Shown here: positions 5,617 to 21,546 of the stretch, in pieces | Layout: every line of letters begins with the position of its first letter | Position numbering within the stretch: the first letter of the stretch is position 1 | Origin: Rhizobium sp. P38BS-XIX | Lineage (GTDB): Bacteria > Pseudomonadota > Alphaproteobacteria > Rhizobiales > Rhizobiaceae | Direction of reading: 5' to 3' | NCBI RefSeq assembly: GCF_012641435.1 | Contig: NZ_JABAIJ010000001.1 | Coordinates: 310,001 to 374,000, forward strand | DNA length: 64,000 nt | Notes under the pieces: model-generated | The model's database searches: none | What the model was told of the DNA's origin: nothing | What the model saw: only the letters and a program-made list of their open reading frames with translations | Program-made: the position numbers and the translations under genes

Positions 5617-6207
5617 ATGCTATTTCGTCGCCGAAAACCACTGACGCTGAAGGAAAAACTGCGGGATCACATCTGGCCCCGTAAAGGCTTCGTTCGCTCG
5701 TTCCAATATTTTGGCAAGCGTCTCGTTCGCCTTGCAGCATCGCCGCATTCCGTTGCTGCCGGCTTTGCTGCCGGCATCGTCGTGTCCTGGACGCCGTTCA
5801 TCGGCGTGCACTTCGTGATGGCGATCATCATTGCCTATCTGATCGGCGGCAACGTCATCGCGTCAGCGCTTGGCTGTCTGGCGGCGGGAAACCCGATCAC
5901 CTATCCTTTCATATGGGCTCTGACCTGGGAAATCGGTCATCTGATCCTTTCGCGTGACAGCGGAAGCGGGCAGGGTGCGGGCATCGATCTGCCGGCCCTC
6001 TGGCACAAGGGCGATCTCCTGCAGATCTGGGACCCGGTTCTGAAGCCGATGCTCATCGGCGGCATCCCTCCGGCAATCGTTACCGGCGTAATCGTCTACG
6101 CGCTCACCTATTGTGGTGTGAAAACCTTCAAGACGCGCCGCAAGGAGCGCCTGATGGAACGTGCGCGCGAGCGCATGGCGCTGGCCGAAAACACGTCCAG
6201 CGTCTGA
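5617..6207 (+). CDS. DUF2062 domain membrane protein
   Basis: 196-aa inner-membrane protein. A basic N terminus (MLFRRRKPLTLKEKLRDHIWPRKG) is followed by a small-residue segment and the DUF2062 hallmark region SPHSVAAGFAAGIVVSWTPF, then a hydrophobic helix (HFVMAIIIAYLIGGNVIASALG) with the NPITYPFIW motif, a loop, and a last helix near residues 145-165. The tail is basic and helical. It precedes acpS by 36 bases in the same direction and may be cotranscribed with it. No biochemical role is established for this family. Confidence 0.85.
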   Translation: MLFRRRKPLTLKEKLRDHIWPRKGFVRSFQYFGKRLVRLAASPHSVAAGFAAGIVVSWTPFIGVHFVMAIIIAYLIGGNVIASALGCLAAGNPITYPFIWALTWEIGHLILSRDSGSGQGAGIDLPALWHKGDLLQIWDPVLKPMLIGGIPPAIVTGVIVYALTYCGVKTFKTRRKERLMERARERMALAENTSSV

Positions 6208-6243
6208 CGCATTGTGACGCCTGGGCCGTCAGGAGGGCTTTTC

Positions 6244-6648
6244 ATGATCATCGGTATTGGCAGCGATCTCATCGACATCCGGCGGGTGGAGAAGACGATC
6301 GAACGTTTCGGCACACGATTTACCGATCGATGTTTTACCGACATAGAACGTGCAAAGTCGGAAGGCCGCAAGAACAAGGCCGCCTCCTACGCCAAGCGTT
6401 TTGCCGCCAAGGAGGCCTGTTCGAAGGCGCTCGGCACTGGCCTTGCGCAAGGTGTCTTCTGGCGCGACATGGGCGTCGTCAATCTGCCGAGCGGCAAGCC
6501 GACCATGCGGTTGACGGGCGGAGCCGCCGAGAGACTCGCTGGCATGCTGCCGGAAAATCATCGCGCCGCCATTCATTTGACGATAACCGATGATTTTCCT
6601 CTTGCTCAGGCTTTTGTGATCATCGAAGCGCTGCCGATCAGTGCCTGA
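6244..6648 (+). CDS. acpS: holo-[acyl-carrier-protein] synthase
   Basis: This enzyme transfers 4'-phosphopantetheine from CoA to the serine of acyl carrier protein. At 134 aa it has the usual length. Metal-binding residues are seen in [21 protein letters not shown] (Asp near residue 8) and in [17 protein letters not shown] (Glu near residue 58). The ATG at 6244 follows caggagggcttttc, a strong ribosome binding site. Its substrate gene acpP lies at 58.4 kb. In E. coli acpS is at the end of the rnc-era-recO-pdxJ-acpS cluster; here it is at the front. Confidence 0.96.
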
Positions 6649-16089: not shown

Positions 16090-16253
16090 GTCTTCTCCGT
16101 GGGCAATCCGCTGCACATTATACCAAACGGGTCCAAGGGTAAGAACCGATGGCCGAATTCACCCATGATTTCAGTGGATTATCCTTCGCACGCCGGCATT
16201 TGTCATAATGCGGAAATATTAGATCGTTCCGATTTACGACTTGGGAACTATGG

Positions 16254-16268
16254 TTAATAGCCATTAAC
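16254..16268 (+). promoter_or_regulatory. GTTAA-N6-TTAAC box upstream of the first EF-hand gene
   Basis: TTAA-TAGCCA-TTAAC, an inverted repeat about 115 bases before the EF-hand start. It resembles the CtrA recognition pattern TTAA-N7-TTAA but is one base short. A similar box lies at the same distance from the second EF-hand gene. Binding by CtrA is inference. Confidence 0.35.
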
Positions 16269-16381: not shown

Positions 16382-16717
16382 ATGTCCCATGTATCTTCCA
16401 TATCCAACAGCTCGTATCCCTATCGCGGCACGCTTTCGCGCCTCGATTCGAACGGCGATGGTGTGCTGAGCCGCGAAGAGCGCGAGGCGGCCGATCGTCC
16501 TGGTATTCTTGAGCAAGACAACACGAGCGGCGGTGACGGCTCCAGCCCTGCAATGAGCAGCCTGATGGCGAAGCTTATGCAGTTGCCGATTGCCGACAGC
16601 GCCTCGAAGACGAGGGCGCCGGATGCGAATATCGCATACGACGTCGATCTTCTTTCGCCGATGGATGCTTATAACAGCACCTACGGCCAGTATGACGTTA
16701 ACGACATAGCGGCCTGA
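16382..16717 (+). CDS. small EF-hand protein
   Basis: 111-aa protein with one clear EF-hand loop, LDSNGDGVLSREE (about residues 21-33), having Asp/Asn/Asp/Glu at calcium-ligand positions. A Ser/Gly/Asp-rich linker follows and the protein ends STYGQYDVNDIAA. There is no signal peptide. ATG 16382 follows the strong site aaaggaggtttgt. The C-terminal STYGQYD is shared with the EF-hand protein at 17613, and a sodC gene lies between them. Calcium binding is expected; the partner and location are unknown. Confidence 0.82.
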   Translation: MSHVSSISNSSYPYRGTLSRLDSNGDGVLSREEREAADRPGILEQDNTSGGDGSSPAMSSLMAKLMQLPIADSASKTRAPDANIAYDVDLLSPMDAYNSTYGQYDVNDIAA

Positions 16718-16742
16718 TATCAGGCGCATTGCGTGATTGTGC

Positions 16743-16782
16743 GAGCGGTCTGCCTGATAAAGGCTGGCCGCTCTATCATTTT
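16743..16782 (+). terminator. hairpin after the first EF-hand gene
   Basis: GAGCGG pairs with CCGCTC and an inner GCCT with AGGC, followed by TATCATTTT. A plausible terminator that would separate the EF-hand gene from sodC. Confidence 0.55.
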
Positions 16783-16867
16783 GATATAGGTTCAATTTCG
16801 CCGATTTTCGGAACAGTCGCGCCCGCCATGCGTTGGACCATTGCCACGCAAACAGGGAGGGCGCTCC

Positions 16868-17380
16868 ATGAAACGGATGATGATGGCGACAATTCTGGCT
16901 TTTTCCGCAGCCATGCCTGTTGCCGCGCAGACCCAAAGTCAGAATACGGCAACGGCCAATTTTGTCGGACTTGATGGCAAGGAGGCAGGACGAGCCACTT
17001 TGACCGAAGGCAAGAAAGGCGTGCTGATCGAGATGGAAGTCTCCGGCATGCCCGCAAATCGGTGGGTTGCCTTTCACATTCACGAAAACAGCAGCTGCGA
17101 CCACAAGCACGGCTTTGAATCGGCCGGCGGCCACTTCAATCCGACCAAGGCAGAGCATGGTTTCCTTGCGGCAAAAGGCCCGCATGCCGGTGATATGCCG
17201 AATCAATATGTCGATCAGGACGGCAAGCTGCGCGCTCAGGTCTTCAACGGCATGGTGTCGTTGAATGGCAAGAACGGGATTCGCGGCCGCACCCTGATGA
17301 TCCATGAAGAGTCGGATGACTATCGCAGCCAGCCCGTTGGAGGCGCCGGCAAGCGCCTGGCTTGCGCCGTTATCGAGTAG
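16868..17380 (+). CDS. sodC: superoxide dismutase [Cu-Zn], periplasmic
   Basis: Converts superoxide to peroxide in the periplasm. A signal peptide (MKRMMMATILAFSAAMPVAAQ) precedes the mature enzyme. Copper and zinc ligands are visible in VAFHIHENSSCD, SAGGHFNPTKAEHGF and LMIHEESDDYRSQPVGGAG; the C-terminal LACAVIE holds the cysteine that pairs with the first. The usual HxHExGxC appears here as HIHENSSC (Ser for Gly). 170 aa is typical. ATG 16868 follows gggagggcgctcc. It is flanked by two EF-hand genes in the same direction. Confidence 0.94.
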   Translation: MKRMMMATILAFSAAMPVAAQTQSQNTATANFVGLDGKEAGRATLTEGKKGVLIEMEVSGMPANRWVAFHIHENSSCDHKHGFESAGGHFNPTKAEHGFLAAKGPHAGDMPNQYVDQDGKLRAQVFNGMVSLNGKNGIRGRTLMIHEESDDYRSQPVGGAGKRLACAVIE

Positions 17381-17412
17381 ATCAGCCATAAGGCATGATT
17401 CGATCCCTTGCG

Positions 17413-17441
17413 CGAGGCTGTGCAAAGCCTCGGTTGTTCTC
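17413..17441 (+). terminator. terminator of sodC
   Basis: CGAGGCT pairs perfectly with AGCCTCG around a 6-base loop, followed by GTTGTTCTCTT, 33 bases after the sodC stop. Confidence 0.6.
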
Positions 17442-17490
17442 TTAGGGCGAGTGCCCACCGGCAATATGATTCGATGCCTGTCAATTATGG

Positions 17491-17518
17491 TTAATGGTGA
17501 CTTAACACCAATCTATAT
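17491..17518 (+). promoter_or_regulatory. CtrA-like box and promoter of the second EF-hand gene
   Basis: TTAA-TGGTGAC-TTAAC at 17491-17506 fits the TTAA-N7-TTAA CtrA consensus exactly. CTATAT at 17513-17518, the common rhizobial -10 hexamer, is placed so that the box covers the -35 region, as in CtrA-activated promoters. The EF-hand start is about 95 bases downstream. Regulation by CtrA is inference from the pattern. Confidence 0.45.
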
Positions 17519-17612
17519 CTGACCGACCAAATCGACCTATTCTGTCGGCAGGTGATGAAGCGTGCCGGGGGGCAATCGAACACGCCGATGGCGTTTGCTT
17601 TAGGAGATTTGG

Positions 17613-18284
17613 ATGAGTGGCGTTTCTTCAATTGGAAGCAGCATGACGGCTGCCTCGTACAGTCCCCTTGATAAGAACCAGGACGGTGTTGTGGATGCTC
17701 AGGAGTTGCAGGAGGCCGCCCAGTCCGGCCTTCTGTCCGCGAGCCTTCTCAACGATGAGGACAGCGACAACAGCAGCGATCCAAGCGCCACGGACGTATT
17801 CTCCGGCAATCTGGCCTCGATGCTTCTGCAGATGCAGCAGGCAAATTCCGGTCAGTCTGGCTCATCCTCCTCAAGCGACGGATCTTCGGACCAGTCGCCG
17901 ATGGATCAGCTGTTCGCCAGCCTGGACACCGACAAGGACGGAAAGATTTCCGAGAAGGAATTCGTCGCAGGGCGTCCGCAGGATATGAGCGAGAGCGACG
18001 CCGAAAATCTGTTCCAGAGCATCGATGCGCAGGGATCCGGTGCCCTCAACAAGGATCAATTCGCCGAAGGTCTAGACGCGCTGAAATCTTCCGACGTTTC
18101 CGCTGCGGATATGTTGTCTCTTGAGCCTGCTTCGACAACAGGTAACAGCGGTAAGGGATCGGCAACAGCGGCTCAGGACCAGGCATTCGATGTGTTTCTG
18201 AGCGAAATGCAGAACCCCTCAGGCCTCTATCAGAGCACCTACGGGCAGTACGACCCCGATCTGACGAATGGTATCGGCGGCTGA
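17613..18284 (+). CDS. EF-hand protein with three loops
   Basis: 223-aa acidic Ser-rich protein. Loops are LDKNQDGVVDAQEL (about 19-32), LDTDKDGKISEKEF (about 107-120), and a degenerate third IDAQGSGALNKDQF. A low-complexity SSSSSDGSSDQS linker separates the first two. No signal peptide is seen. It ends STYGQYDPDLTNGIGG, sharing STYGQYD with the small EF-hand protein at 16382. ATG 17613 follows ttaggagatttgg. Rhizobia have a known exported calcium-binding protein, calsymin, that also lacks a classical signal; whether this one is exported is unknown. Confidence 0.85.
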   Translation: MSGVSSIGSSMTAASYSPLDKNQDGVVDAQELQEAAQSGLLSASLLNDEDSDNSSDPSATDVFSGNLASMLLQMQQANSGQSGSSSSSDGSSDQSPMDQLFASLDTDKDGKISEKEFVAGRPQDMSESDAENLFQSIDAQGSGALNKDQFAEGLDALKSSDVSAADMLSLEPASTTGNSGKGSATAAQDQAFDVFLSEMQNPSGLYQSTYGQYDPDLTNGIGG

Positions 18285-21531: not shown

Positions 21532-21546
21532 TTAATAAAACGTTAA
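21532..21546 (-). promoter_or_regulatory. CtrA-like TTAA-N7-TTAA box
   Basis: TTAA-TAAAACG-TTAA upstream of the 85-aa protein gene, overlapping the stop codon of the TIGR02301 gene. It matches the CtrA spacing, but TTAA-rich sequence can arise by chance in this AT-rich gap. Confidence 0.3.

Follow-up and report, generated by a model that had tools for sequence, protein, structure and literature searches.

Calsymin (CasA) of Rhizobium etli is built of domains with two EF-hands each and is secreted without N-terminal cleavage. Beside its gene lies that of CasR, a divergent TetR-type regulator. To our knowledge the route by which calsymin leaves the cell is unsettled, and we know of few clear targets of calcium signalling in bacteria. 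Published accounts describe calsymin as exported or secreted (PMC6421345, PMC9860679) and as having three EF-hand domains (PMC10574481); the bacteroid-induced EF-hand genes RHL1101 and RHLb6093 (PMC6421345) and RLTA1_RS09750 (PMC9860679) are possible counterparts of the short gene treated below.

Other calcium-binding proteins of rhizobia are linked to type I secretion. RapA2 (pRL100451) and the cadherin-like proteins RL2961 and pRL100309 are prsD-dependent, and calmodulin-like motifs have been attributed to two large PrsDE-type proteins (PMC2275737); NodO has been named as a PrsDE substrate (PMC10574481). For the related strains CIAT 899 and PRF 81 the excerpted text of PMC3557214 gives secretion systems of types I, IV and V and no identified type III system. 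Sites of the cell-cycle regulator CtrA are described as TTAA-N7-TTAA and TTAACCAT, a 6-bp spacing being known as well (PMC6180460), and work in Agrobacterium relies on the same motifs (PMC11527210). In S. meliloti CtrA acts mainly as a positive regulator, with flagellin genes among its direct targets (PMC4433202).

We analysed a stretch of 64,000 nucleotides of Rhizobium sp. P38BS-XIX, here called the window. A first-pass annotation had pointed to two EF-hand proteins flanking sodC that share the C-terminal sequence STYGQYD, and had proposed this tag as an export or anchoring signal. In our search of the open-licence literature on calsymin, PrsD, sodC and CtrA in Rhizobium the tagged pair was absent from the titles and abstract starts among the matches listed. 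The results below shift the focus away from a putative export tag tied to the SOD and towards a family of regulated genes.

The two EF-hand genes and their kinship

The features of the locus, all on the + strand, are as follows.

16250..16268, +, CtrA-type site 5' of the short gene, ATGGTTAA (reverse complement of TTAACCAT) overlapping TTAA-N6-TTAAC (upstream-region comparison)
16382..16717, +, short EF-hand protein P0001, 111 aa
16445..16480, +, single EF-hand loop of P0001, DSNGDGVLSREE (PF13202 match below cut-off; sequence)
16670..16696, +, tag YNSTYGQYD of P0001 (pattern search, pN/pS)
16868..17380, +, sodC, Cu/Zn superoxide dismutase, 170 aa (Pfam Sod_Cu, 131.4 bits; the start at 16868 is our reading)
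17413..17432, +, terminator-like hairpin 3' of sodC (consensus match only; 4 such sites found against 1.7 expected)
17487..17506, +, CtrA-type site 5' of the long gene, ATGGTTAA overlapping TTAA-N7-TTAAC (upstream-region comparison)
17613..18284, +, long EF-hand protein P0002, 223 aa
17670..17705, +, EF-hand loop 1 of P0002, DKNQDGVVDAQE (Pfam; homologous to the P0001 loop by BLASTP)
17925..17960, +, EF-hand loop 2 of P0002, DTDKDGKISEKE (Pfam; first member of the calsymin-type pair)
18024..18059, +, EF-hand loop 3 of P0002, DAQGSGALNKDQ (non-canonical last position, Q instead of E, from the sequence)
18228..18254, +, tag YQSTYGQYD of P0002 (pattern search)

The coordinates, lengths and common STYGQYD given in the first-pass annotation were right, as seen from the ORF list and from a 15-base YGQYD pattern, which occurs at exactly two places in the window, both in the genes of P0001 and P0002, and in none of 100 shuffles. 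sodC lies between the two genes, and both proteins end with Y[NQ]STYGQYD followed by a short tail. The large membrane protein (DUF2339-like), sodC and the phosphatase-like, HD-like and YgfZ-like genes, which we take to be the neighbours in the window, were named from their sequences.

P0001 has one EF-hand (16.7 bits against a Pfam cut-off of 25.9) and no family above cut-off in the Pfam scan, whereas P0002 has three over the cut-off and, besides EF-hand families, exceeds it only for SPARC_Ca_bdg (22.4 against 22 bits). The best NCBIfam match of both is the XopAW family (NF041410), whose cut-off of 120 bits is not reached by their scores of 51.0 and 18.5. Both proteins are acidic (pI 4.05 to 4.28, a range that includes the calsymin-like proteins) and contain neither Cys nor Trp. 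By eye no signal peptide is visible in either protein: the N-termini, beginning MSHV in P0001 and MSGV in P0002, are Ser-rich and show no hydrophobic stretch. The earlier statement that signal peptides are lacking agrees with this inspection of the sequence.

The two proteins had been regarded as otherwise dissimilar, which turned out to be wrong. BLASTP aligns their N-termini (42% identity, 43 aa, E 4e-5) and, as a separate segment, their tails (E 1e-4). Five upstream regions, taken from short and long loci together, have in common GGTTAAT (or GTTAAT), a further TTAA element and a stretch before the start codon. Judged from these sequences, P0001 and P0002 are paralogues, because promoters, N-termini including the first EF-hand, and tails are alike. 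The tag is thus one end of a duplicated gene, as the BLASTP and upstream alignments indicate, and not an isolated element on two unrelated proteins.

Compared with P0001, P0002 contains an extra EF-hand pair of the calsymin type. Calsymin had been named as a relevant relative, and it is real kin of P0002: this protein, and P0002 only, aligns with P0003 of R. johnstonii 3841 (50% identity, 60 aa, E 5e-16). P0003 and its counterpart P0004 are called calsymin-like here from architecture and neighbours, their records reading 'EF-hand domain-containing protein'. At locus L144 (genome G281, about 6025-6470) the long gene lacks the EF-hand pair in frame but keeps the N-terminal EF-hand and YQNTYGQYD. 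Since the pair is lost there and both ends are retained, the core module consists of the first EF-hand, linker and tail. A third EF-hand paralogue occurs at another locus of R. leguminosarum-type genomes (two genomes: L175 about 6979, L182 about 6629; GTG start); it ends with LQAYNNTYG or LQAHRNTYG followed by a different tail. The 5' part of the long gene of R. freirei PRF 81 (L024, about 5980-6575) does not share the reading frame of the remainder, through either a mutation or an error in assembly.

CtrA-type boxes upstream of both genes

A TTAA-N6/7-TTAA box is situated 112-130 nt 5' of the start codon in 62/62 upstream regions of distinct short proteins and in 44 of 47 long-gene rows, mostly 119-124 nt before the start (L093 at 183); both counts come from related genomes and are hence not independent, and four of the 47 rows (L001, L005, L027, L060) are copies of the window locus itself. 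Three long-gene rows have no box; L009 and L080 contain a ATGGTTAA half site, and L136 has neither. The spacing is 6 in the short-gene box and 7 in the long-gene box. Within the window the octamers ATGGTTAA or TTAACCAT occur twice, exactly at the two upstream sites of the EF-hand genes, and among TTAA-Nk-TTAA arrangements with k from 0 to 13 only k = 6 (three) and k = 7 (two) were found. A pattern fitted to the long-gene site has a single occurrence in the own genome, and 38 loci (430 kb) hold 77 TTAA-N6/7-TTAA boxes in total.

From this pattern of sites it is probable that CtrA controls both EF-hand genes via the conserved boxes. The conserved CtrA-type boxes 5' of both genes are new. In its main text the paper on CtrA in S. 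meliloti (PMC4433202) does not use the term "EF-hand". Twelve wider family members, calsymin-like genes included, showed no CtrA-type motif in their upstream regions, and neither did the third EF-hand paralogue. Three further TTAA-N6/7-TTAA boxes of the window are located at 21532, 41196 and 58183.

Constraint on the C-terminal tail and its independence of sodC

The profile of the short protein matches 147/148 Rhizobium genomes (E <= 0.001), the single miss (G305) being 82% complete. Among 199 Rhizobiaceae genomes it gave eight matches at E <= 0.01, those in the four Rhizobium genomes full length and the other four weak and partial; a plasmid search with P0001 gave no match. Twenty loci related to the long gene were found in genome contigs. 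Two of them are distant (Schlesneria) and were set aside; the other 18, from Rhizobium or, more broadly, Rhizobiales, carry the long gene, and in 18/18 the short gene with the tag is present as well.

TYG[QE][YF] is kept in 62/62 distinct short proteins, 15 of which came from loci fetched by the tag pattern, and in 47/47 when the pattern-fetched loci are left out, although the profile that detected these 47 was itself derived from tagged proteins. The long protein is represented by 47 ORF strings, of which 25 stop at the locus edge before the tail and were not counted; the tail is kept in all 22 that could be counted. Pairwise, uncorrected pN/pS of the short gene is lowest in the nine codons of the tag (0.156), followed by the EF region (0.261), residues 1-10 (0.444), the part after the tag (0.593) and the linker (0.778). 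The same order was obtained after removal of the pattern-fetched loci (0.139, 0.256, 0.414, 0.562 and 0.702, respectively). In the tag pS is high at 0.705, and pN is the lowest among the five segments at 0.110. The tag is shown to be the most constrained segment of the short protein, under purifying selection, and the conservation of the tail that had been supposed earlier is borne out in both sets.

It had also been supposed that the tag goes with EF-hand proteins. This stood for the full form: TYGQ occurs in none of 21 other YGQ[YF]D loci (L029, L148-L167, outside the short gene; counted by eye). Five of these 21 belong to a single protein, about 480 aa long, whose motif lies 311 aa before the end, and the remaining loci are frames of 18 to 310 aa, several of them probably not genes. 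A general C-terminal tag was rejected on the same 0/21. In the own genome the YGQYD pattern occurs at three places, the third inside a 23-aa frame. Relaxed forms are present in other proteins as well. Y..TYG[QE][YF] was found at 16 places across 199 Rhizobiaceae genomes, five in EF-hand genes and 11 in three AraC-type regulators, six permeases, one other membrane protein and one 23-aa frame (kinds named by eye). The AraC-type matches lie 10-18 residues before the C-terminal end, so that a near-terminal YxxTYGEY alone is no proof of kinship. The relaxed form also matches 147/148 Rhizobium genomes, a figure not used to count tagged EF-hand genes, because AraC-type genes are among the matches listed. 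At L189, L196, L198, L202, L209, L213, L216 and L224 the AraC-type regulator contains Y[KR]xTYGEYPS close to its C-terminus; this sequence is probably a look-alike of the tag and not kin.

sodC has a match in 142/148 Rhizobium genomes. It adjoins the short gene in 35 of 38 loci, the other three (L135, L141, L142) having no sodC match there, and a comparison of match coordinates in 15 further genomes puts the two genes 121-353 nt apart in 14 of them and 1529 nt apart in the last. Nevertheless, the short gene is retained in five of the six genomes that have no sodC match. The neighbourhood is stable, yet the tail is independent of sodC. Because the third paralogue has a TYG tail and the five sodC-less genomes retain the short gene, the tail belongs to the EF-hand family and not to the SOD. 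The syntenic site in three other genera (L173, L174, L176), next to the same phosphatase-, HD- and YgfZ-like genes, is occupied by an EF-hand gene whose N-terminus is similar; TYGQYD and a sodC match are absent at these loci. The supposed tie of the tag to the SOD is thus positional only, and a partnership with the SOD is not supported by the genomes that lack sodC. Between short gene and sodC no TTAA-N6/7-TTAA box was found in any of the 35 loci measured, from which we infer that sodC may share the transcript of the short gene.

The AlphaFold models have pTM values of 0.17 (P0001) and 0.33 (P0002), and the EF pair of P0002 is the only well-modelled part. Fifty Foldseek matches were listed, mostly calmodulins and relatives, with none at E <= 0.001; the best 60 of 62 matches of the PDB sequence search were mainly calmodulin-like or kindred EF-hand proteins aligned over the EF pair. 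None of the three approaches was informative on the tail. A family-wide C-terminal amphipathic helix was dropped for P0001 and P0002: the best moments in the last 45 residues range from 0.24 to 0.61 across the family (0.25 and 0.39 in the window proteins) and often lie outside the tag.

Function of the tail, export and known systems

We considered several explanations of the pair. To the first we would give an even chance: P0001 and P0002 would be CtrA-controlled, calsymin-related paralogues, derived from the duplication of an entire transcription unit and equipped with a C-terminal docking motif. One unit of operator, N-terminal EF-hand and C-terminal tail would have been duplicated to give both genes, and CtrA would act on each of them through the TTAA-N6/7-TTAA boxes. 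The acidic proteins would bind calcium via their EF-hands, and the nine-residue tail, which a variable Ser-rich linker connects to the EF-hand, would be a short docking motif for a partner protein. Here the argument is drawn from conservation, because the models are of low confidence (tail pLDDT 55 or less). Points against this explanation are that the lone EF-hand of P0001 falls under the Pfam cut-off, that CtrA-type motifs were not found 5' of the 12 wider family members and the third paralogue, and that AraC-type regulators and permeases contain relaxed forms of the tag. From the relationship with calsymin we lean towards non-classical export of the pair, without use of the tag.

Second, both proteins could be cytoplasmic, cell-cycle-controlled calcium sensors whose tail binds a cytoplasmic partner. 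The lack of a visible signal peptide, the predicted CtrA-type control and the near-universal presence in the genus (147/148) are all consistent with this alternative, but the relative calsymin is described as exported or secreted (PMC6421345, PMC9860679), and we regard it as somewhat unlikely.

Third, an N-terminal signal that is rich in Ser and Thr and is not cleaved could send the proteins out through the flagellar type III apparatus, the tail being a chaperone or partner site. Family members with differing tails have a Ser/Thr-rich N-terminus in common, mostly M[ST]x[VI]S, and the start MTSI occurs in 5/18 family rows and, in the own genome, in 4/7 Flagellin_N loci, among which L237 was translated in a wrong frame. 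A calsymin-like gene adjoins flgE and flgK on pRL12 and pRetIE4771d, and CtrA-type boxes are present here while flagellin genes of S. meliloti are direct CtrA targets (PMC4433202). Four common residues are, however, weak evidence, and P0001 and P0002 start with MSHV and MSGV. Moreover, FlgE, FlgK and DUF1217 were matched in 0/14 wider regions, flagellar neighbours being seen for calsymin-like genes only. This route is clearly unlikely. A broader version is very improbable in our view: a genus-wide, CtrA-timed calcium system in which the EF-hand proteins would be made with flagellins, leave by flagellar type III export through the Ser/Thr-rich N-terminus and dock by YxxTYGQYD to a cell-surface or chaperone partner, with sodC in the same CtrA-driven unit.

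Fourth, in keeping with the first-pass proposal, calcium-binding proteins that have no signal peptide could be secreted by the type I (PrsDE) route, with the C-terminal tail as their signal. An N-terminal signal is not visible in P0001 and P0002, the motif begins inside the last 20 residues, a single PrsD-type ABC transporter of the own genome scores over the curated cut-off, and type I systems are reported for CIAT 899 and PRF 81 (PMC3557214). But TYG is absent from the last 80 residues of RapA2, NodO and the cadherin-like protein of pRL10, where the cadherin-like ORF was equated with pRL100309, and a 'calcium-binding protein' ORF beside the rhi genes with NodO, by position and annotation. 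In addition, RTX or Ra/cadherin-like repeats are not among the Pfam matches of P0001 and P0002, the calsymin-like proteins have no such tag, and the excerpted text of the R. leguminosarum 3841 secretome paper names no small EF-hand protein (PMC2275737). A type I signal therefore seems a poor candidate. With P0003, P0004 and three PrsDE-type proteins all lacking the tag, the proposal of an export or anchoring signal is not supported, and a role of the tag in export is doubtful.

Finally, the genes are paralogues and the shared tail could be a functionless remnant of their duplication, but this is disfavoured and almost certainly wrong, given the low pN at high pS of the tag in both sets and the retention of the tail in L144, where the EF pair is lost.

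A near-universal Rhizobium EF-hand protein with a strongly constrained nine-residue motif and a predicted CtrA operator offers a simple handle for a partner search, and the combination of predicted operator and EF-hand provides a way to ask whether the cell cycle and calcium binding are coupled.

The calsymin-like genes themselves (L168:3518-4393, L169:3545-4396) lie between a divergent TetR gene and the flagellar hook genes flgE and flgK on the R. johnstonii and R. etli plasmids pRL12 and pRetIE4771d. In the own genome a calsymin-like gene (G000:C2:116310-116750; L049, L170) and the PrsD-type transporter (G000:C2:59764-61389) are on the same contig, about 55 kb apart.

Among known systems, XopAW (NF041410) is the best NCBIfam match, yet far under the curated cut-off. 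The PrsDE type I proteins RapA2 and NodO resemble the pair in being calcium-binding and in showing no visible signal peptide, but the C-terminus is not common to them. Calsymin shares with P0002 the EF-hand pair EFVAGRPxDxxExxAxxLFxSxDxxGxGxL and a Ser/Thr-rich N-terminus, and the calsymin-like proteins are, like P0001 and P0002, acidic and free of Cys and Trp. Calsymin has three repeats, whereas P0002 has one in addition to its lone first EF-hand and P0001 has a lone EF-hand and no repeat. P0003 and P0004 end with GSLSVQSAG and GSLSVQSAS, respectively, instead of the TYGQYD tail. Their genes have a divergent TetR gene and flagellar neighbours and no upstream CtrA-type motif, unlike the loci of P0001 and P0002, where no divergent TetR-type regulator was found among the window neighbours. 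In their upstream regions the two genes resemble members of the CtrA regulon of alphaproteobacteria, with predicted full or half sites of the types TTAA-N7-TTAA and TTAACCAT.
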